Positions 1 through 14,547 of a stretch of 24,091 nt of DNA are shown here, in pieces. Origin of the DNA: a virus. The stretch lies in the IMG/VR virus record IMGVR_UViG_3300030339_000236, positions 1 through 24,091 of that record; one strand, given 5' to 3'. Position numbers and translations under genes: made by a program. Positions within the stretch are counted from its first letter, which is position 1, and every line of letters begins with the position of its first letter. The notes under the pieces were generated by a model, which saw only the letters and a program-made list of their open reading frames with translations, did not search any database and was not told the origin of the DNA.

Positions 1-287
1 GGGGAACTTTGTTTGGACTGTCAAAACTTCTAATGATAGATGAGTTCTATAGAATGAGGACAGAGGAAACGAATCTTGGTATAAATTATCCAACGTTTTT
101 AAAAATTAAATATAACAATTTTATTGTAAATTTGTTATCATGTCCATTATGTTTATCTGTATGGTTGTCTTCATTTATATCATTTGTTTTATTATTCTTG
201 GGTATTGATATTATATTACTTATTCCAACAATAACAGTATTATCGTTAATAACTTATGGAATAATTACCATACTACTAAAACTATAA
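1..287 (+). CDS. Small membrane protein with CPxC motif, 5'-truncated
   Basis: This plus-strand reading frame is open at the left edge, so the true start probably lies outside the window; TTG at 9 is the first possible start inside it. The visible part has a polar N-terminal half with a CPLCLSVW motif, followed by two hydrophobic segments that should span the membrane. A Cys-Pro-x-Cys pair just before a Trp and a membrane segment resembles DUF1360-type small membrane proteins of Firmicutes and phages, but the match rests on this motif alone. Its stop TAA overlaps the next ATG by one base (TAATG), so the two genes are probably translationally coupled. The function is unknown. Confidence 0.6.
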   Translation, partial: GTLFGLSKLLMIDEFYRMRTEETNLGINYPTFLKIKYNNFIVNLLSCPLCLSVWLSSFISFVLLFLGIDIILLIPTITVLSLITYGIITILLKL

Positions 288-3756: not shown

Positions 3757-5079
3757 TTATTTACTATTTTGATGTCCGACCGCATTAAAGAAGAGAGTTT
3801 TAGATTCTTCATAATGTTGTTCAGTCATCACATTATAAAACAGTTTGTTAGGATTCAACCTATTTTCTGCTTTAAGTTTTTTATATCTTTCAATTGCCTT
3901 TGGTTTCCACCAATCCACGATGGCTTTGGTATCCTCTTTAAATAGAGGCTTCATCACTAATTTATCCTCAGTAATTTTATTACATAAAAATTCTCTGGTA
4001 TTTTCATAGAAACACGAATAATACGCACCACGTTCAAATCCATGCATATAATCTGTCTGTTTAATCCCACACGCCTTAAATATCATGGCCAAAACCCTAT
4101 TCTTTGCGCCTGTGACTGGGCCTGACACGCCTTCTTTCTGTGTCATAGCTTTGTCATATTCCTCCTTCATGTGTTGTTTTAACCAACCATGCCAGTTAGA
4201 ATATCCCTTTTCATAAGGTTTTATAGCAATCTTACCCTTGGTCATACCGACAGGCTTCCACCACTTTAAACTATTATACATTGAAAACCCACCATACAAA
4301 CTTGTAGTTGTCATACCAACCAACTTGCCAGGATTAGCTTCAGCAGTTATTCCTGGATGTTCCCATTCGTTTCTTACAACTCCTGAGGTTACTAACGCGG
4401 CTACGAGTTTTCCACCAAGAAAGTTACTACCAAATGGTTGAGTTGGAACGATTGTCGTACCAATAGCAGAATGTTTTAACATTTTGTTTTTCAGTTTATT
4501 TTCAGGTGTCCAGCCAATAAACTTATCTCTATCGGATATAGAAATAACATCACTGGCAATAGAACATATTCCTAAAACCTTATTTGTTACTTCATCTACC
4601 ATTAGAAACTTAATAAATCTTCCTGGAGCCTGATTATATTCAGCGCTACTACAATAATATCGTAATGTTGTCCACAATCTTTCCAAATATTCATTATTTA
4701 CAACTATTGCCTTTGGTTGTAAATTAATAATTTCTTTAATGGTCAACTCTTCATCATTTATATCCGTAGGACTCCATATAGTGGCTTTAGCTTGATTAGC
4801 AAATTCTTTAATAAAATTGGTAAGCAACTGCATCTCTTCCCATTTCTTACGAAATGTAAATTCTTCGACAGACAAACTAGATAACCAATTTAAATCCGCT
4901 ATTACTATCTTTTTATTATCATCAACATCAAAGGCGTCTTTACCAGTTCCAACCTTGAAGGCATCGTTATTTGGATACTCTCCGCCATTATAATTTTCCT
5001 TTTGTTTTACTTCAAAGGCCTTTTTCTTAACTTCTTCCGGTCTTGGTTCAAAATCGAAAATGTTCGCAATATTAGACAT
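3757..5079 (-). CDS. Large DUF4338-like (DruA-related) protein (copy B)
   Basis: A 440-aa protein. The frame is open to 5139, but the ATG at 5079 (MSNIANIFDFEPRP) is chosen because a promoter (TTGACA-N16-TACAAT) ends 8 nt before it. Residues about 150-285 carry the same stations as copy A: FIKFLMVD, then SDRDKFIGW (182-190), TTIVPTQPFG (208-217), MTTTSLYGGFSMYNS (256-270) and LKWWKPVGMTKGK (271-283). It is thus a distant DUF4338 relative with an extra N-terminal region of about 150 residues and a C-terminal region of about 150. Long proteins of this type are, as I recall, common in T4-like environmental phages. The activity is unknown. It opens the operon that runs to the epimerase at 575. 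Confidence 0.75.
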   Translation of the reverse strand: MSNIANIFDFEPRPEEVKKKAFEVKQKENYNGGEYPNNDAFKVGTGKDAFDVDDNKKIVIADLNWLSSLSVEEFTFRKKWEEMQLLTNFIKEFANQAKATIWSPTDINDEELTIKEIINLQPKAIVVNNEYLERLWTTLRYYCSSAEYNQAPGRFIKFLMVDEVTNKVLGICSIASDVISISDRDKFIGWTPENKLKNKMLKHSAIGTTIVPTQPFGSNFLGGKLVAALVTSGVVRNEWEHPGITAEANPGKLVGMTTTSLYGGFSMYNSLKWWKPVGMTKGKIAIKPYEKGYSNWHGWLKQHMKEEYDKAMTQKEGVSGPVTGAKNRVLAMIFKACGIKQTDYMHGFERGAYYSCFYENTREFLCNKITEDKLVMKPLFKEDTKAIVDWWKPKAIERYKKLKAENRLNPNKLFYNVMTEQHYEESKTLFFNAVGHQNSK

Positions 5080-5115
5080 ATACTTATATTGTATGGTCAC
5101 ACTAATCAATGTCAA
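5079..5115 (-). promoter_or_regulatory. Sigma70-type promoter of the DUF4338-gp62-dNMP kinase operon
   Basis: On the minus strand TTGACA (5115-5110), a 16-nt spacer and TACAAT (5093-5088, 5 of 6 matches) precede the ATG at 5079 by only 8 nt. The expected transcription start is at about 5081, so the mRNA would have almost no leader. No Shine-Dalgarno site precedes the ATG. The -10 box overlaps the candidate start codon (5093) of the divergent plus-strand gene. Confidence 0.6.
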
Positions 5116-5614
5116 CAGTAAAATAGTTATAAAAACCACAACACCAAGGTATTTTCATTGTTTTAAATTAAATGAATCGAATTATGCTTTATTTGATATA
5201 AAAATGGACATGCCTCTGGTAATAGGGTCGTTATCAATTATAAAATCCACAAAACTACCAACAAATTCCACCGTATTTTATTATGAAATTGGTATGAAAG
5301 GAGGGTTTGAGAAGGGGCCGGAAAAGACAATCGAAATATCAGGCGAAGGGAAACGTCAAAAAGCGCCATTGCGATATCATTACATCGATAAAAATGTAAC
5401 GACATATCACAACTTCAAAATAAATTCAGTATTATTTTCTTTATGGGATAACAATTTTAAAATGCCTATTGTGTACGGGTCGAATCAAAAAGTTCAAGCC
5501 ACATTAAACCAAGTCTCAAAGGAATCGGCAATATTTTACTACCAAGAAGATATGACAGTAAAAAACTCTTTTAAATTGTTTATGACATTTGAAGGTAAAA
5601 AGTCACATTTTTAA
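5093..5614 (+). CDS. Tandem-duplicated beta-rich-looking protein of unknown function
   Basis: About 173 aa starting at ATG 5093; the frame is open from 5060, and the true start is uncertain because this ATG lies inside the divergent promoter and has no Shine-Dalgarno site. The protein consists of two related units of about 65 residues at roughly 20-84 and 105-169. Matching stations are FKLN / FKIN, MPLVIGS (40-46) / MPIVYGS (124-130), STVFYYEIGM (59-68) / SAIFYYQEDM (145-154), and IEISGEGK / FMTFEGKK. The linker is basic. The function is unknown; a repeated small binding or structural domain is likely. It stands alone on the plus strand, and its stop overlaps the convergent 65-aa gene by 12 nt. 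Confidence 0.65.
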   Translation: MVTLINVNSKIVIKTTTPRYFHCFKLNESNYALFDIKMDMPLVIGSLSIIKSTKLPTNSTVFYYEIGMKGGFEKGPEKTIEISGEGKRQKAPLRYHYIDKNVTTYHNFKINSVLFSLWDNNFKMPIVYGSNQKVQATLNQVSKESAIFYYQEDMTVKNSFKLFMTFEGKKSHF

Positions 5615-5619
5615 TGTGA
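5597..5619 (-). terminator. Intrinsic terminator of the MoxR-VWA operon
   Basis: Read on the minus strand, TCACATT, a 3-nt loop and AATGTGA are followed by CTTTTT. The hairpin includes the stop codon of the 65-aa gene. On the plus strand no T-tract follows the same dyad, so it should work leftward for the minus-strand operon. Confidence 0.5.
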
Positions 5620-5800
5620 TGTCAAAGTCACATTCTCTAAGTCCATCCGATAATCCTCCCATTAAAGCAACTTCCATTTGGATATCAGTCCTATCAAGAC
5701 TAATCTTTACGATGTTATTTTTCTTGGTATCAAAAATACCATACACATGTAAATCAATTAAAATAGATTTTTTAATTTTCTTTGATTTTTTCTTAAGCAT
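5603..5800 (-). CDS. Small conserved-looking phage protein (65 aa)
   Basis: The N-terminus is very basic (MLKKKSKKIKKS), followed by a compact region with alternating hydrophobic residues: LIDLHVYGIFD, then KNNIVKISLD, then EVALMGGL and CDFDITL. This looks like a small beta-rich fold and is coded consistently with its neighbours. No function is recognised. It is the last gene of the operon that starts with the MoxR ATPase, and its stop codon lies in the terminator hairpin. A possible local promoter (TTACAA-N18-TATAAT) overlaps the end of the upstream gene, giving a leader of about 24 nt. Confidence 0.65.
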   Translation of the reverse strand: MLKKKSKKIKKSILIDLHVYGIFDTKKNNIVKISLDRTDIQMEVALMGGLSDGLRECDFDITLKM

Positions 5801-5826
5801 ATGTATGGTATTATTGACTGTTACAA

Positions 5827-6240
5827 TTATACGTTTACCGTTGATGGAGTTGTAATATTACTGACGGGGGTTACTGTGGGCGTAACACTTGAAGATTGAT
5901 TTGTGATTTCCATGACAGGCATAATTTTTGCCATTTCAATTGTGGAAATTCCTTCTGACGATGCTTTTTCTACTACAGACTTTTTAACTGGTCTCATTGC
6001 AAATACCAATTGAGGTCTTCCTTTTCCAGAATGTTTCTGTCCAATAACTGCGACAAGATTTTCTTCAGCAATAGCTTTACTCAGTCGAACTCGAATTGTT
6101 ATGTCTGATGGCTTTTCTGCTGATGTAAGCATATGACTATTTGCTGCCACCAAGTCGGTGATGGTAAAATAGGTGTCATTCGACGGCCACGAAACAATCT
6201 GTTTCGTCTTATTCTTACGTTGTGTTTTTCTAATATTCAT
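5827..6240 (-). CDS. Putative winged-helix DNA-binding protein (137 aa)
   Basis: The frame extends to 6315, but the ATG at 6240 is preceded by a good Shine-Dalgarno (AAGG, 9-12 nt upstream) and gives a basic N-terminus (MNIRKTQRKNKTK). Residues about 20-82 look like a winged helix: helix FTITDLVAAN, then DITIRVRLSKAIAEENLVAVIG as a recognition-helix-like segment, then a wing with GKGRPQLVFAM. The pattern T-x-R-x-x-L followed by a GKGRP turn is typical of such folds, but no family is named with certainty. The C-terminus (about 110-137) is Thr/Pro/Val-rich and probably disordered. It lies 84 nt downstream of the VWA gene; the gap holds nothing else that I recognise beyond AT-rich sequence. Confidence 0.65.
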   Translation of the reverse strand: MNIRKTQRKNKTKQIVSWPSNDTYFTITDLVAANSHMLTSAEKPSDITIRVRLSKAIAEENLVAVIGQKHSGKGRPQLVFAMRPVKKSVVEKASSEGISTIEMAKIMPVMEITNQSSSVTPTVTPVSNITTPSTVNV

Positions 6241-6324
6241 AATTATTTTCCTTGTGTTCCTATAAATTTGGAATCTACAATCGAACACGTTACTATAAAT
6301 TCCCCCATTTGTCAACCACTTTTA

Positions 6325-8418
6325 TTATTCTTTCATTAAGAATAACTTGTTCATAGTTCTAGCAATATCCATAACGTTCTGAACATCAATAAACTGTGCG
6401 TCACTACCATACATCTTATCAAACATTCCCCTATATGTCAACTGTGTATTTTTATACGATGACAATCCACTATAACCGTCATTGCTGTCTATAAAATAGC
6501 TTAAAACCTTAACACCTCGTCTTTTAATTTTTTCTACTTGCATCTTTGTATGTAATGCTCCAGTCTCTCCACTATAATTTAAATCAGTGTGATATCGATT
6601 TGATAATGAATTTATAACATAACAAGGTTCTCCATCAGATATATTTAAAAAATAATGGTCTTGTTCGTTGGATTTTTTACCTATGATAAATTCTTCTGCT
6701 ATAGACTCAAATGTCAATCCTTCAGGGGTCGAACCTGTTGCGCATAAATAAGGAAATAGATGCCTAATTTTTGAAATTTTATCGACTTTCGAATCATAGG
6801 CCAACACAATATATGGCAATTCACTATTATTACATTTACTAAATATTGTACTTCTAAACGATACTGATACATCTAAATTTTCTACCATCGATGCGGCAAC
6901 ACATATCGCTACCACACAAGTCATCGTTGGACACCATTTAGTATAAGTCTGCATAGAACCACTAGCATCAACCGATATATGAAGCCTAAGTTTGTTGTAT
7001 TTTTCAATTATTGTTCTATTAAAAATGCCTTCTAAACCTGCGCCGACATCGGCCAGTAACCGTCTTTCTATTTTACCTGACGACTTTCTAATATACTTAA
7101 TGTGGTTTTCTTCTCCACGTATTTGAAGTTTTTTTCCTAACATCTTACCTAATGAAAACCCTCGTACAACAGCATCTTCATATTCTCTTATTGGGGCATT
7201 TGTAGTTCTTGATATAAATTTATCTAGTGAAACTAAAGGAAAAATATGTTTGCCTGCATCCATTAACTTCTTTGATAACTTTTTAACAACTACAACATCC
7301 ACCGATGCTCGTTCATAATCTCCAGATAATCCATATCCAGAAGGGACTAAAGAAATATCAGAGTTTTCTATAGCATCAAGAATAGTCTGTTCTTCTTTTG
7401 TTACCCTAGTTTTAATTTCTCCATACTTATGGTCAAGAACATTTCTTTGTTTGTTAAATTCATCACTTAACTCTTTAAGTTCATCGGATGAAAACTCATT
7501 TGTATCGCCCACATCATCAGGTTCATAATCTTTAAAATCATCTACATGCGAACTCTGTGATGTACCATTTTTTTCAGAAAGTTTTTCGTGAATTTTTTGA
7601 ATAGTCGAATCCGATGCCGATTTTTGTTCAGCTTGCTTTATGATATTATCCATTATTAACTCTACGACGGCATAACTCAAATTCATTCTCTTTAACGTGG
7701 TATTTAACCGATATATGTTATCTATATCAATTAACTCAGCAATTTCACGAAGACCAGGTAAAGCATCCAAATCCGTAGCTTCATTTGTAAGATTTATAAT
7801 TCTAAACTCATATGATAAAATGTTCGGAACTCTCATGATAAAAGACCGCAACGCTTTAGATTGTATTTCATTATTCCAAAACTTCTGATATAACGATTCA
7901 TAATATCCTCTATAACCAGGAGCTTCAGAAAAAACATAATTATCTATATATCTATCCTCTATAAAATTCCAAACCCATTTACAAATGTATGCAAGTTGCT
8001 CTCCTGACACATTTTTGTCCTTTGATTTTTTCTTTAAAGTCATTGGGACTGGAATAGGAATTTTAGAAAACGTAGAATGAAATACTTCAAAATCTGTAAG
8101 AAGAATATGCGATGCTTCGTGTAAAGCAAGTCCAACCGTCCAATCGAAGTCTTTCTTATTTTTTATGGTAGCAGAAATGTATATAGCTTTACCGTCAGTA
8201 AAACTTAACTTTGAATTTTCATCTGAATTAAACTGAACTGGAATATCCAGTCCCGTCAAAATAATAACAAAATTAGAAACCACTCTACGATAGGTAGCAA
8301 ATTGTATCAAATCCGTGGAAAATCCTTCTCCAACCGATTCATCGGTCATATATTGGTCTAATGCCGGAGTATTTAACCAAAAATCAGAATACGTTTGTTG
8401 TTTATCTATCTCACTCAT
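6325..8418 (-). CDS. VWA protein with zincin-like N-terminal domain (MoxR partner)
   Basis: A 697-aa protein with two recognisable parts. The N-terminal part has the metallopeptidase-like motif HEASH (100-104) in GLALHEASHILL, as in DUF2201-type putative metallopeptidases. The C-terminal part, from about 475, is a von Willebrand A domain with an intact metal-ion site: DASGSM (about 483-488), a TGSTPEG segment and NISDGEP (about 594-600). The middle (about 280-350) is acidic and helical. VWA proteins of this class work with MoxR/CbbQ ATPases to insert metals or remodel target complexes. Here the ATPase gene lies immediately upstream with a 1-nt gap. Whether the HExxH site cuts proteins is unknown, and the phage target is unknown. 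Confidence 0.85.
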   Translation of the reverse strand: MSEIDKQQTYSDFWLNTPALDQYMTDESVGEGFSTDLIQFATYRRVVSNFVIILTGLDIPVQFNSDENSKLSFTDGKAIYISATIKNKKDFDWTVGLALHEASHILLTDFEVFHSTFSKIPIPVPMTLKKKSKDKNVSGEQLAYICKWVWNFIEDRYIDNYVFSEAPGYRGYYESLYQKFWNNEIQSKALRSFIMRVPNILSYEFRIINLTNEATDLDALPGLREIAELIDIDNIYRLNTTLKRMNLSYAVVELIMDNIIKQAEQKSASDSTIQKIHEKLSEKNGTSQSSHVDDFKDYEPDDVGDTNEFSSDELKELSDEFNKQRNVLDHKYGEIKTRVTKEEQTILDAIENSDISLVPSGYGLSGDYERASVDVVVVKKLSKKLMDAGKHIFPLVSLDKFISRTTNAPIREYEDAVVRGFSLGKMLGKKLQIRGEENHIKYIRKSSGKIERRLLADVGAGLEGIFNRTIIEKYNKLRLHISVDASGSMQTYTKWCPTMTCVVAICVAASMVENLDVSVSFRSTIFSKCNNSELPYIVLAYDSKVDKISKIRHLFPYLCATGSTPEGLTFESIAEEFIIGKKSNEQDHYFLNISDGEPCYVINSLSNRYHTDLNYSGETGALHTKMQVEKIKRRGVKVLSYFIDSNDGYSGLSSYKNTQLTYRGMFDKMYGSDAQFIDVQNVMDIARTMNKLFLMKE

Positions 8419-8419
8419 T

Positions 8420-9373
8420 TTAGTTGAATGGAACTCTTACTTTTGTTTTTCTGACGGGGTCATTGATGGGCGACTTTACTTTTGATGCATTTAAATCAAT
8501 GTATTTTTGAACAAGTTGTTTTATAAACAATCGTTCACAATCCTGACCATTGTCTTCGCTATATAACGGATAGATAGTCATCTCCGCAATATCATTCAAC
8601 GAAAATCCATCAAGTATTAATCCAGACATCTCTATAACAGAATCAGTCGTTAAGAATGTACTAATTTTAGGATTTTCTGATTTGCAATTATTCTTAGTAT
8701 CTTCTGAAATTTTTGTGATTAAATGAAATGCCTTTTTGTGTTCATCCGTGGCATCAGGGTGAATTACATTTAATAGATATTCTTCCTGTCTGGCGGTGAG
8801 AGTTTTCATCTCAATTATTACAGGAAACCGTGAAGTTAAAGCTTTATCCATCACCCTCGTTGCGGTGTATTCATTTCCTACATTTGCCGTGGCAATAAAT
8901 GATACTCCATCCGCCACAGGTACTACCGACGACTCTTCCGTTTCATCAAGACGAATATATTTTTGAGTATTGTCTAATACAGGCATTAAAATATTCCATG
9001 CGTCATGATGACCTCGGGATAATTCGTCAAGAAGAATAATTGAATTCGGCGTACTAATTGCCTTTACAAATTCAGAAGGATGAAAAGCTGTACCGGTGTC
9101 TTTTTTAAAAGTAGTATTGCCGATTAAAGTAGCTCTAGCATCTTGAGTAGAGCCAAAATTGAAAGTAAAAAATTTTCTATCGGATGCGTATACAGACGCA
9201 ACAGATTTTGCCGCTTTTGTCTTGCCAGAACGTGTAGGGCCAATAAAAAGAATGTTTTTACCTCTTAAAACGGCCCATACAAGATATTTCCATTGTAATT
9301 CCTCGATAATTAAATCGTTGGGTTTTAATGTATTACAATCAAAAAGTTGTTTTTTAATTTCGTCACTTGTCAT
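8420..9373 (-). CDS. MoxR/CbbQ-family AAA+ ATPase
   Basis: A 317-aa AAA+ ATPase of the MoxR/CbbQ/NorQ type. Walker A is GPTRSGKT (45-52), Walker B is IILLDE (112-117), a sensor-1 region with Asn164 lies in ATANVGNEYT (161-170), and an Arg finger candidate is Arg182 in TSRFP. These ATPases act as hexamers with VWA-domain partners to activate or remodel other proteins. The partner here is the next gene. The ATG at 9373 has no Shine-Dalgarno site and lies 9 nt behind a promoter -10 box, suggesting a nearly leaderless mRNA. Similar MoxR-VWA pairs occur in T4-like phages, but their role in infection is not established to my knowledge. Confidence 0.88.
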   Translation of the reverse strand: MTSDEIKKQLFDCNTLKPNDLIIEELQWKYLVWAVLRGKNILFIGPTRSGKTKAAKSVASVYASDRKFFTFNFGSTQDARATLIGNTTFKKDTGTAFHPSEFVKAISTPNSIILLDELSRGHHDAWNILMPVLDNTQKYIRLDETEESSVVPVADGVSFIATANVGNEYTATRVMDKALTSRFPVIIEMKTLTARQEEYLLNVIHPDATDEHKKAFHLITKISEDTKNNCKSENPKISTFLTTDSVIEMSGLILDGFSLNDIAEMTIYPLYSEDNGQDCERLFIKQLVQKYIDLNASKVKSPINDPVRKTKVRVPFN

Positions 9374-9410
9374 TCGATAGGGAGTATATCACCGCCCTAT
9401 AAAAAGTCAA
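9373..9410 (-). promoter_or_regulatory. Sigma70-type promoter of the MoxR-VWA operon
   Basis: On the minus strand TTGACT (9410-9405), a 16-nt spacer and TATACT (9388-9383) end 9 nt before the ATG of the MoxR gene. The predicted start of transcription is about 9375-9376, leaving only 2-3 nt of leader. A 6-bp dyad ATAGGG/CCCTAT (9377-9382 and 9395-9400) flanks the -10 box and could be an operator. The promoter fills the whole gap between the two genes. Confidence 0.55.
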
Positions 9411-10278: not shown

Positions 10279-11055
10279 TCAACCAAAGAAGCTAAATTCT
10301 GTTGGTCTATTGACTACTATTTCTTCTATTTCGTCTTTATAAGTATTTCCATTGGGATATGGTAAAAACTTATGTTTTAGATTCTTTAAGATTTTCTTCT
10401 TTTCGGTCTTACTTCCTAAGAGATACACATATCGATGTTTAGTCGATTCTTTCTTTCTCCAAAAAGTCTGTCTTATTTGTTTCTTTATTATCTCTACATT
10501 ATGGGAACCATATAAAGATGATACCGTTCTGGAATGAATCCATTCATATGGTGGCCCCTTGAGAGATATGGAGAAGTTAGGCATCAGGGCCAACGATGAA
10601 TTGCCTTGATAATAAAAATTGGCAGCTTGATAGATGGTTCCTTTATGATTCTGTTCTCCATCTGCATAAGATATTATAGCTTTTATATGTGGAAAATCCA
10701 GTTTTACCATCCTCATAGATTCACTTATCGAATAACTTTCAATATTTTTCCCATATCCATCATAAATAAACAATCTAGTTAACTCGAACACTTCATCAAT
10801 TTTAACCAAATTGGAGATAGATTCGGCAGCAGACCTACCTACAGGTTGACCATAAATTACACAACCAATCAATTTTTCATCAACATTTGTAAAGAATTCA
10901 GAAGTTTCGTCAGATTTGTAAAAAATGCCATAAGCGACTTGACATAACGACCATTTATGAGAATAATGATTCTTTACAATCATATCTTCCGCAAGACGTT
11001 TGGACATTTGTCTTAATGTAACTCGTTTGGAATCAAAATACTTTTCTTCTACCAT
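10279..11055 (-). CDS. Mom-like / GNAT-fold DNA modification protein
   Basis: A 258-aa protein resembling the Mom family, the phage Mu protein that converts adenine in DNA to a methylcarbamoyl derivative and so blocks restriction. The stations seen are HYSHK (30-34), VIYGQPVGR (66-74), ELTRLFIYDGYGKN (91-104), IISYADGEQNHKGTIY (127-142) and QAANFYYQG (143-151). This is the arrangement of GNAT-fold Mom relatives in many phages. Mu Mom is 231 aa, so the length is compatible. The assignment is from pattern memory, and another GNAT function is possible. The gene starts directly behind a consensus promoter and would be expressed by host polymerase, consistent with early protection of phage DNA. 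Confidence 0.72.
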   Translation of the reverse strand: MVEEKYFDSKRVTLRQMSKRLAEDMIVKNHYSHKWSLCQVAYGIFYKSDETSEFFTNVDEKLIGCVIYGQPVGRSAAESISNLVKIDEVFELTRLFIYDGYGKNIESYSISESMRMVKLDFPHIKAIISYADGEQNHKGTIYQAANFYYQGNSSLALMPNFSISLKGPPYEWIHSRTVSSLYGSHNVEIIKKQIRQTFWRKKESTKHRYVYLLGSKTEKKKILKNLKHKFLPYPNGNTYKDEIEEIVVNRPTEFSFFG

Positions 11056-11880: not shown

Positions 11881-14547
11881 TTAAGAACATTTAGACCAAC
11901 CACAAGTTGTACAAGATACACATCCTTCAAGATAAACCAATCCGTTTCCACAACTTGGACAAGATTGTCCCTTTGCAACTTCACCTTGAGGAATATACTT
12001 TTTCAAAACTCTTGCGGCGGCAGAACCCATTGAAGTAATATCTTCCGTAGCCTTCTGTAATTGGTCAACAATGAACTGAATAGGTACGCCATGTCTCAAA
12101 CTAGTTGAAGCTAAACGAAACATGATTTGTTCGGTAGGCGTAAACTGTTTACTAAAATCTTCTATTGTAATATCGTCAATTTCCAAAGCATACTGTTTAT
12201 TTTTAACCTTACGAATCTTACCTTTTTTGTAATTAGATTTCAATCCAAGTCCATTCAGATGTCCGCCAAAAATTTCATATGGTTGTCCGTTTTGAATACC
12301 AACAGCAATACAAAACTTCTGACCTTTAACGGTAACGATATGAATATCTGCATCCAATACAGGCAATCTTTCGGGAGCAGCATTTTGATTAGCCTTTGAA
12401 ATCTTCTGACGAGACACATTCAATTCCTTCAACTCTTCATCGGAAAAGTTTTGATGATGTGATTCAATTCCTTCATCCTTTAACTTAAACGCCAAATCTT
12501 TAAAGGCAATATTTGAAATAATTCCATACATTTTCTTATCAGGAAAAGCAGCAATCGACTTTACTTCCTTTTCATGAGAAGCTACGATAAACTTATAAAC
12601 TGATTTCCAGTCTGAACCTATTGGCAACAAATAAGTTGTTGAAATAGATGAATCCACCCATTTCATTACTTTTGACATAAACTCCAACTTTTCAATAGGG
12701 TCGATTTCGGTAGATGCTTTAAACTTAATACCAACTTCTTCCACGTGTTTATCAATAAACTCTGCAATTGGTTTGCCATGTTTTCCATCCCAATCATCAC
12801 GAATAGTATCAGAATTCATTGGAATTGGGAACCCTGCCTTTTCAAATGCCTCACGAACAACTTTAGGAACGTTAAAGTAATACTTGTAACTTCCGTGCAT
12901 TCTGGTTCTTTTCCAAAAATACATAAAAAACGCGGCTTCAATTCCATAACTCATAACCAAATCACGAAACATTAAACTTAACGTTCCTGTGGGAGCGATT
13001 GAACTATTTGTGACATTTCTAGCAGATTCGCCGGTCATTATGGGAACTTCATACACTTTACTCAAAGCCACAGAGTCTTCCACAACTCTCTTAACAAAAG
13101 GAGCAGAATTCCATTTTTCTTTATTGAACAACCCGAAATTACCTTTTTCTTGACCATTCATTTCAGAGCTGTAATACATCCAATAATTAAACAATCTCAT
13201 GAACTCTTCAAATGCCACATTAGCATCTGGAGTAGCATAAGCTAAGTTTTGTTTAAACAACCAACCAACAATGTTAGTTACTCCTGCTCCTGTTCTACGA
13301 AGTTTTTCAATGGCCATCTTCTGATGTGGGGTAGCATACGTCTGATATACCAATTCACATTCATTTACGTTATCCAAAAATCTGTTCATCGAAATGCCTA
13401 CTCGTTCCAATTCGTTTACATATATTTTTGGGTCTGTAGAAAATTTCCCAACATTCAAAGAACCTAAAACACATAGAGATTCACGACTCAAATATTGTTC
13501 CGAACAAGCATTAGTCGAAAGAATACGAGAATCATATTCGTCCTTTGGGTCATAGACATAATCAGAATTTGAATACTTTCTGGCCACATCAATATTTTGA
13601 ACTCCGGGTTCCGCATTTTGATGCATGTTCTTTGCAATCAATTCCATCAACTTACGAGCCTTCACAGTTTTAGAAAAAACTTCTTTCTTCTTATCGTGAG
13701 TAGCAATCTTATAATATTTACCATTTGAATCTTTTAATGTATCGGCATCAATGCTATGAACATCCAAATATATTTTGTCACCTTTTTTGATACCAGGAAC
13801 TTCAAAAGAAAGTTCCCAATCTTTATCATCTTCAACATACTTATAAAATTTATCAGTCAACTGAACAGAGATATTAGCATTTTGAATTTTTGTATAATCA
13901 CTCTTGACTGTAATAAACTCTTCCACGTCAGGATGATTAATACTCAAAGAAAATAGCATGGCCGGAATACGGCCTTTTTGACCAACAGAATAACCAATGC
14001 CATCAATGTGTTTCATCCAATGGACGGCGCCGGTTGATTGATTGGCGCTATTTAAAACTTTTGTTCCACAAGGACGAAGACGACTAAAATCCACGCCCAA
14101 TCCCTGACGATATGCGGCACATTTTGCAACCGTATATGCCGTATTCTTCATGATTGATTCCAAATTATCCCATTCTTCATTTTCACGAAGAGCGCCCAAT
14201 GAAATGGTTGTACAATTTGCCAAAGAAATTTTTCTATGTGTTCCTGCTCCCTGCATAATAGAACCGGCAGGATGCCACCAATCGTTATAAATTTCATCAA
14301 ACCAACGTTCGCTCCAATATTTTTGAAGTTCTGGCGTCCTTTCTACAGATGCAATATAATCACACACACGTTTTAATGCTTGAACGTATGTTTCCCCATC
14401 TTCAGCTGTGTATTTTTTATTAAATGCATCAATGGAAAATTGATTTCCATTAAAATATTCTTCCGTAGTTTGCTTTTTTACATCTTCGTGTCTGGTTGTA
14501 ATCTTATTGAAGTCCTCTTTTTTATTTGCAATTTCATCTTTACTCAT
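11881..14547 (-). CDS. nrdJ: Adenosylcobalamin-dependent (class II) ribonucleotide reductase
   Basis: An 888-aa reductase making deoxyribonucleotides from ribonucleotides with a B12-derived radical. The active-site loop is NACSEQ with thiyl Cys348 between Asn346 and Glu350. The redox pair is Cys112 (LANCTTISL) and Cys359, the latter 11 residues after Cys348 as in Thermotoga-type class II enzymes. APTGTLSLMFRD is the conserved phosphate-binding loop. The C-terminus has the Cys-rich tail with CPSCG, EGC, SCTTCG and SKC that regenerates the active site. An AGGA Shine-Dalgarno lies about 5 nt before the ATG. Class II enzymes need no oxygen but need cobalamin, so the host must make or import B12. 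The helicase gene precedes it. Confidence 0.95.
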   Translation of the reverse strand: MSKDEIANKKEDFNKITTRHEDVKKQTTEEYFNGNQFSIDAFNKKYTAEDGETYVQALKRVCDYIASVERTPELQKYWSERWFDEIYNDWWHPAGSIMQGAGTHRKISLANCTTISLGALRENEEWDNLESIMKNTAYTVAKCAAYRQGLGVDFSRLRPCGTKVLNSANQSTGAVHWMKHIDGIGYSVGQKGRIPAMLFSLSINHPDVEEFITVKSDYTKIQNANISVQLTDKFYKYVEDDKDWELSFEVPGIKKGDKIYLDVHSIDADTLKDSNGKYYKIATHDKKKEVFSKTVKARKLMELIAKNMHQNAEPGVQNIDVARKYSNSDYVYDPKDEYDSRILSTNACSEQYLSRESLCVLGSLNVGKFSTDPKIYVNELERVGISMNRFLDNVNECELVYQTYATPHQKMAIEKLRRTGAGVTNIVGWLFKQNLAYATPDANVAFEEFMRLFNYWMYYSSEMNGQEKGNFGLFNKEKWNSAPFVKRVVEDSVALSKVYEVPIMTGESARNVTNSSIAPTGTLSLMFRDLVMSYGIEAAFFMYFWKRTRMHGSYKYYFNVPKVVREAFEKAGFPIPMNSDTIRDDWDGKHGKPIAEFIDKHVEEVGIKFKASTEIDPIEKLEFMSKVMKWVDSSISTTYLLPIGSDWKSVYKFIVASHEKEVKSIAAFPDKKMYGIISNIAFKDLAFKLKDEGIESHHQNFSDEELKELNVSRQKISKANQNAAPERLPVLDADIHIVTVKGQKFCIAVGIQNGQPYEIFGGHLNGLGLKSNYKKGKIRKVKNKQYALEIDDITIEDFSKQFTPTEQIMFRLASTSLRHGVPIQFIVDQLQKATEDITSMGSAAARVLKKYIPQGEVAKGQSCPSCGNGLVYLEGCVSCTTCGWSKCS

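Follow-up and report, generated by a model that had tools for sequence, protein, structure and literature searches.

The stretch of viral DNA analysed here is IMG/VR record IMGVR_UViG_3300030339_000236, positions 1 to 24,091, and all 24,091 nucleotides of it are called the window. On its minus strand lie a gene for a MoxR-type AAA+ ATPase and a gene for a protein with a zincin-like region and a VWA domain, followed by two short genes. The ATPase open reading frame (ORF) comes first and that of the VWA protein adjoins it, 1 base away. The features of the locus are the following.

8420-9373, minus strand: MoxR/CobS-type AAA+ ATPase, 317 amino acids (Pfam AAA_5, 8e-14; PHROG 249, 5e-17)
6325-8418, minus strand: VWA protein, 697 amino acids, with a zincin-like N-domain (about residues 30-262), a disordered linker (265-306) and a VWA domain with a metal-ion-dependent adhesion site (MIDAS; about 355-697)
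8107-8121, minus strand: HEASH motif, residues 100-104 of the VWA protein
6952-6969, minus strand: MIDAS motif DASGSM, residues 484-489 of the VWA protein
5827-6240, minus strand: small protein, 137 amino acids, winged-helix-like by eye only (15 sequences aligned, window included)
5603-5800, minus strand: basic protein, 65 amino acids; gene kept in four contigs without the ATPase-VWA pair (L097, L098, L103, L106)
9383-9410, minus strand: promoter-like site of the ATPase-VWA unit, TTGACT-16-TATACT, score 10 of 12
6287-6315, minus strand: promoter-like site of the small gene, TTGACA-17-TAACGT
5597-5619, minus strand: weak terminator-like A+T-rich hairpin between convergent genes, overlapping the stop codon of the 65-amino-acid gene

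A preliminary description of this DNA had named a MoxR ATPase, and the ORF is indeed present with a firm AAA+ identity from the AAA_5 and PHROG 249 matches. PHROG 249 bears the name 'porphyrin biosynthesis', and the best match by sequence among solved structures is midasin (2.5e-12). The ATPase also has PADLOC matches (best E 1.3e-9), which we put down to the likeness that AAA+ proteins share in general. The same description had placed HEASH and an intact VWA metal site in one 697-amino-acid protein, which agrees with the ORF found and with the invariance of every motif residue. H100, E101, H104, N151, E154, D155 and D159, together with the five MIDAS residues D484, S486, S488, T564 and D595, are identical in 121 of 121 aligned sequences (the window and 120 distinct relatives of at least 600 amino acids; shorter ORFs among the 161 hits were left out). 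Because the patterns of the VWA scan held parts of the HExxH and MIDAS motifs, and may thus have biased this count, the residues were recounted in sequences reached only through the neighbouring small gene. They are again identical in 42 of 42, with AAA ORFs below 290 amino acids left out. An acidic residue among E154, D155 and D159 may bind the metal.

An AlphaFold2 model of the whole VWA protein (mean predicted local distance difference test score, pLDDT, 76) consists of the N-domain, the linker at low confidence and the VWA half; the N-domain modelled alone reached pLDDT 89. The modelled VWA half is closest to the VWA domain of NorD (Z 20.7 over 259 residues, 4.5 Å root-mean-square deviation, aligned from residue 355), followed by the MIDAS domain of Rea1/MDN1 at Z of about 18. 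Generic VWA domains among the matches listed aligned over 164-183 residues, from about residue 425-477, at Z 14-16. By the extent of the NorD match, the VWA domain is predicted to be of the kind that partners AAA+ proteins, as in NorQ/NorD-type chaperones. Against a library of viral structures, the N-domain gave 9 matches at E of 0.001 or below, by name mostly phage CobT or VWFA proteins including that of HCTV-2, with an uncharacterised HHTV-2 protein among them.

Family searches with the window VWA protein gave no Pfam, PHROG or NCBIfam match. Among 22 aligned members, 14 match phrog_1576 (no name), 5 phrog_5298 (cobalamin biosynthesis), 3 phrog_17276 (CobT) and 2 a peptidase PHROG; in Pfam, 5 match CobT_C, 2 VWA and 1 CobT. 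The VWA profile found only unconvincing matches among the sequences of solved structures (best E 0.011, a cyclodextrin glycosyltransferase), and in named phages the searches turned up a VWA relative in two records and a partial match in one more. The family looks viral, as it was found in 403 viral stretches against 3 contigs, all metagenome bins, in a bacterial and archaeal set with one genome per species; this ratio is rough, since the two scans differed in alignments and patterns.

The pairing of the two genes extends well beyond the window. The VWA scan kept the best 80 of 403 stretches and the small-gene scan the best 80 of 98, and pairing was counted at loci where the sequence extends 3 kb or more to either side of the VWA gene, ten contigs being in both scans and near-identical contigs being included. 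Of the 65 loci found by the VWA protein, 54 have an AAA gene no more than 3 kb away on the same strand (28 upstream, 26 downstream); so do all 54 of the 54 found by the small gene, there always upstream of VWA. In a set of 90 VWA loci, an AAA gene occurs within four genes of VWA in 61, and the next most frequent neighbour clusters reach 12. This set is without L001, L002, L005, L016 and L017, which are duplicates or lie beside another locus, and Microcystis phage Mel-JY01 consequently shows no AAA in it. With an AAA gene near VWA, an intact MIDAS, and an N-terminal HExxH with downstream acidic residues, the locus has the features of a MoxR/vWA-metallopeptidase pair.

Seven of the 80 small-gene loci lack both AAA and VWA, two of them (L108, L144) being cut by the contig start. 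Whole contigs of L097, L098, L103, L106 and L161 (19 to 215 kb) gave no match to the VWA or ATPase profile, and three control contigs hold both. These five keep the flanking genes. In L097, which is near-identical to L098 at this locus, a 279-amino-acid homologue is followed after 280 bp by the small gene, with flanking genes conserved. Since ATPase and VWA are missing together in five contigs that keep the small gene, the pair is present or absent as a whole, and the small gene is independent of it.

Transcription signals point to the same division. A simple promoter scan found 22 sites in the region against 18.6 in shuffles, so the window alone is insufficient to show promoters, and relatives were compared using the pattern TTGAC(A/C/T)-15..19-TA...T with 30 shuffles. 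Of 50 distinct regions ahead of the ATPase, 32 have the pattern (shuffle mean 0.8, maximum 4); ahead of the small gene, 46 of 64 distinct sequences have it (mean 0.9, maximum 4). Among the four distinct upstream regions of pairless contigs, L106, L103 and L161 keep it and L097 is without it; the 'pair absent' promoter group of 5 also includes L123, where VWA is merely cut by the contig end. The promoter first described at 9410-9383 thus holds, scoring 10 of 12 and recurring in relatives. One self-contained transcription unit, as then proposed, is wrong or at best a matter of read-through, because the small gene has its own conserved promoter-like site. A hairpin does exist at the proposed terminator, 5619-5597, where it is weak (fold z -2.1, 7 of 200 shuffles as good) and not listed by a terminator scan. 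Judged from these patterns, AAA and VWA would mostly be transcribed together, a promoter directly ahead of VWA may exist in some relatives, and the small gene appears to be served by a separate one.

The start of the small gene, previously placed at TTG 6315, was corrected to ATG 6240 on the sequences of relatives. The 137-amino-acid product has no convincing Pfam match and no match among PDB sequences, and a relative of it gave no match in named phages; an NCBIfam MreA regulator match reaches E 0.04 only, and a Tubby_C_like match (E 0.014) was treated as chance. By BLAST in flanks of limited length, the small gene was detected in 20 of the 90 VWA loci and not in the other 70. Its distance downstream of VWA in those 20 is 27-86 bp in eight, 1,334 bp in L006 and 3.4-3.5 kb in eleven. 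The small-gene scan gives the view from within the phage clade of the window: VWA is present in 73 of 80 loci, and at a stricter cut-off the small gene starts within 100 bp of VWA in 64 of 72. It is therefore a regular neighbour in this clade. The 65-amino-acid ORF is present at 5603-5800 as described, and its gene was found in 19 of 80 loci of the clade. The preliminary description had named a lack of conserved linkage of the four genes as what would refute it, and in the family as a whole such linkage is indeed lacking. Similarly, a DNA-binding partner as a machine part does not agree with a small gene that persists without ATPase and VWA and is detected in so few VWA loci. The small gene and the 65-amino-acid gene look like a separate transcription unit, neighbours and non-obligate parts of any machine, and a single four-gene operon was rejected on the separate conserved promoter-like sites and the pairless contigs.

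In one group of relatives, VWA and the small gene are separated by RIIA-like and RIIB-like genes (L070:8125-11435, L032:8080-10278, L025:10297-11358; PHROG matches tested for L032 and L025).

Taken together, AAA and VWA probably constitute a two-gene accessory remodelling cassette of the NorQ/NorD type, belonging to a phage MoxR/VWA-metallopeptidase family, in which the zincin-like domain holds or cuts a client. This is the part of the preliminary description that is supported as probable, namely a MoxR-VWA pair with a zincin-like domain that remodels a client. NorQD offers a mechanistic model (PMC13036017, PMC9976466). There a finger of the VWA domain enters the AAA+ pore, and the ring is also contacted by the C-terminus of NorD. 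The N-domain helps to bind the target, and the linker leading to it is proposed to be stretched by a rotation that ATP drives. NorD shares the order of N-domain, linker and VWA domain (PMC9976466, PMC13036017) and the VWA fold, including the part before the VWA core. It differs in serving iron insertion into nitric oxide reductase, and the phage N-domain is zincin-like; the two N-domains are likened by layout. By analogy, the phage AAA+ protein would most likely form a hexamer, and the VWA domain would dock on the ring as NorD does on NorQ. The zincin-like N-domain, on its flexible linker, would hold the client, and ATP hydrolysis would twist the VWA domain against the N-domain and so remodel the client, which the zincin site may also cut. 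A second likeness is to midasin/Rea1, the best AAA sequence match among solved structures, whose MIDAS domain is also the runner-up in fold to the phage VWA half (Z of about 18). Midasin/Rea1 is one giant eukaryotic ribosome-assembly protein, unlike the two-gene phage pair.

Several observations weigh against this explanation. No AAA gene lies within 3 kb in 11 of the 65 VWA loci, and in Mel-JY01 it is about 13 kb from VWA. The promoter pattern also occurs upstream of VWA in 8 of 50 regions (shuffle mean 0.4, maximum 2), so AAA and VWA need not always be one unit. The pairless contigs may be fragments, and no client was identified. The fold comparisons lend weak support to a zincin fold: Foldseek gave no match of the N-domain model to solved structures at E below 0.001, and a second comparison gave 23 rows at Z of at least 3, the best at Z 5.7, values below 8 in such a comparison possibly reflecting no more than a common arrangement. 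At the top, both with Z 5.7, stand a lipoprotein that is uncharacterised and a putative hydrolase; one row is unclear, and the remaining 20 or so bear the names of metallopeptidases or of zincin-like proteins such as ArdC and IrrE/PprI.

The strongest competitor, tentative as it is, makes the pair a virion-assembly chaperone and maturation protease whose client is a virion protein. Its probability overlaps with that of the remodelling cassette because it is a special case of it. The combination of a zincin-like domain with MoxR-VWA architecture is in keeping with such a role, which has been proposed in print. Iyer et al. 2021 (PMC7824862) describe a MoxR protein with a vWA protein fused to an N-terminal metallopeptidase in group 2.2 jumbo phages, and suggest virion assembly by analogy with Acidianus two-tailed virus. 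Likened by description, their example (ASV44728/ASV44729) is the same pairing of MoxR and metallopeptidase-vWA as in the window, which differs in having AAA first and VWA second, with a promoter-like site of their own ahead of them and a small conserved gene after them. Since a MoxR protein with a metallopeptidase-vWA fusion is already in print (PMC7824862, PMC8651126), the machine is not 'undescribed', as it had been called. Two observations speak against a virion role. The pair is probably not essential, because it is absent from relatives with conserved neighbours; and its neighbours are replication and nucleotide genes, with a promoter-like site of host type in front of it, a position that an early-made assembly chaperone could still occupy.

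A more distant alternative is that the pair is a viral CobST, that is, cobaltochelatase subunits that borrow the CobN of the host and make vitamin B12 for a B12-dependent ribonucleotide reductase of the phage. We consider this improbable. The reductase in question lies in the same window.

11881-14547, minus strand: class II-like (B12-type) ribonucleotide reductase (NrdJ_Z, 1e-88, 298 bits, under the curated cut-off of 400)

Besides this gene, the 'porphyrin biosynthesis' name of PHROG 249 and the matches of VWA relatives to cobalamin and CobT PHROGs and to CobT_C (5 of 22) favour the idea, and a viral role of this kind was proposed by Liu et al. 2021 (PMC8651126), who read cobS/cobT in tailed viruses as B12-boosting and state that cyanophage cobT is usually mis-annotated as peptidase. 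Their viral cobS/cobT represent the same gene pairing: the N-domain model matches the VWA proteins of two of these viruses, HCTV-2 and HHTV-2, at E of about 5e-4, and has a weak match to that of HVTV-1 (E 0.07). Also in favour, none of the classed contigs that lack the pair had a class I reductase. On the other side, the window's own VWA protein is without a Pfam match; the CobT family domains PF06213 and PF11775 are absent from it and occur, weakly, in 1 and 5 of 22 aligned members. CobN is absent from 12 of 12 contigs searched, though these may be fragments; because the host may supply CobN, some small probability is retained for this alternative. The same 12 contigs include a class I small subunit in two, both with the pair.

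The reductase in the locus is of class I in 33 of the contigs that have the pair and of class II in 15 of them, and contigs without it have class II in 5, these being contigs rather than independent lineages, with near-duplicates included, the loci of ten contigs merged, and unclassifiable contigs and the window contig excluded. Counted by distinct reductase sequence, the numbers are 26 for class I with the pair (three weak), 15 for class II with the pair (some from one contig) and 4 for class II without it. All five pairless contigs (L097, L098, L103, L106, L161) have a class II-type reductase. Because the pair also occurs with class I reductase, the reductase link is removed as support for a B12 role, and in this clade the B12-linked reading of Liu et al. 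is not supported by reductase class. Such a link is no strict hallmark of a cobaltochelatase but would be expected of one that serves the reductase. Stenotrophomonas phage DLP6, whose peptidase and CobS are reported in PMC5349666, likewise has the peptidase/CobS pair together with class I reductase subunits. Its peptidase AAY80_059 aligns with the window protein over N-terminal HExxH-like and ED stretches, and the ATPase, CobS AAY80_061, is in PHROG 249; the gene order is reversed with one gene between, and the similarity is weak (hhalign probability 9%, E 0.0035; BLAST of the two ATPases E 5e-4). With the class counts, the absence of CobN and DLP6 considered, CobST serving the reductase was downgraded, and a vitamin-B12 role of the pair is poorly supported.

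Near the pair, some relatives (L021-L024 and others) have class I reductase (NrdA and NrdB) and others class II; the reductase class has apparently been swapped within one conserved neighbourhood.

Least credible is a four-gene machine for remodelling or processing nucleoprotein, in which the winged-helix-like protein would be the client or a DNA tether: the close spacing in 64 of 72 clade loci favours it, and it is opposed by a small gene that stays in pairless contigs with its promoter-like site in 3 of 4 distinct cases, goes undetected in 70 of 90 VWA loci and lies 3.4-3.5 kb away in 11 of 20.

Related genes are recorded elsewhere in the literature: AAA and vWA-MIDAS genes in haloviruses (PMC7911831), CobS and CobT in a Microcystis phage (PMC9503304), MoxR in cyanophage (PMC9964418), and phage cobS in the core genome of cyanophages, where it is counted as a cobalamin gene (PMC3037559). 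In abstracts and passages of the open-licence literature, no report was found of the small-gene association or of the split MoxR gene described below.

In five contig groups, the MoxR/CobS gene is in two pieces around an ORF (the L070 group comprises L070, L071, L073, L075 and L082; L018 and L019 form another).

L006:5904-7999: split MoxR locus
L018:4086-5990: split MoxR locus
L070:4309-5989: split MoxR locus
L166:5782-7640: split MoxR locus
L183:281-2217: split MoxR locus

The split is at the same site in each, directly after the P-loop helix. In L073 the intervening ORF has PHROG matches to homing endonucleases, and the corresponding ORFs in L006, L018, L166 and L183 are related to it (E 1e-38 or better). 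A common extra tail ends piece one and a common extra head begins piece two, and unsplit ATPases are without both. A scan with the tail found 5 loci, namely the contigs of L006, L018, L019 and L166 and also L183, which is again a split MoxR gene. In 11 of 12 comparisons, which are not independent of one another, the third codon position is the one that changes most in the sequence of the extra peptides, and one comparison is a tie; because of this bias, codon positions suggest that the peptides are translated. An intron was rejected as the explanation, as L006, the contig searched, has no Rfam hit at gathering thresholds and the peptides look translated. T4-like phages offer a parallel, with reductase, topoisomerase and polymerase genes in pieces around homing endonucleases (PMC2988022). 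The split MoxR gene with its matching extra peptides may be a newer observation than the pair itself. One further possibility, speculative and a good deal less likely than the remodelling cassette, is a new mode of AAA+ proteolysis. The ring would twist a VWA adaptor instead of threading the substrate into a chamber, a tethered zincin, as the arm that holds the client, would cut or release a complex of host or phage, and the split motor would be kept working through its tail and head peptides.

The phage of the window is also present in a 102 kb contig, in which the VWA protein is 100% identical. Its genes include a DnaB-type helicase, RecA, a gp32-type protein, a 5'-3' exonuclease, a clamp-loader protein and a deoxynucleoside monophosphate kinase. 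Because related contigs reach 365 kb, it can be assigned to a large-phage lineage. The best named matches of the helicase are the uncultured 484 kb phage LR756508, Microcystis phage Mel-JY01 and Flavobacterium phages. Two window genes, 3757-5139 and 1438-2190, have Pfam matches (1.5e-24 and 1.4e-20) to DruA, a family of Druantia defence proteins, and are found in this phage together with a DNA modification gene.

10279-11055: Mom-like DNA modification protein (Pfam Mom, 1e-42), directly upstream of the 279-amino-acid gene

For the phage clade as a whole, the occurrence of the pair with a B12-independent reductase, and of a B12-type reductase without the pair, speaks for a re-reading of its AAA-VWA pair as a remodelling machine. 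Moreover, since phages that share the flanking genes differ in having the cassette, its role can be tested.

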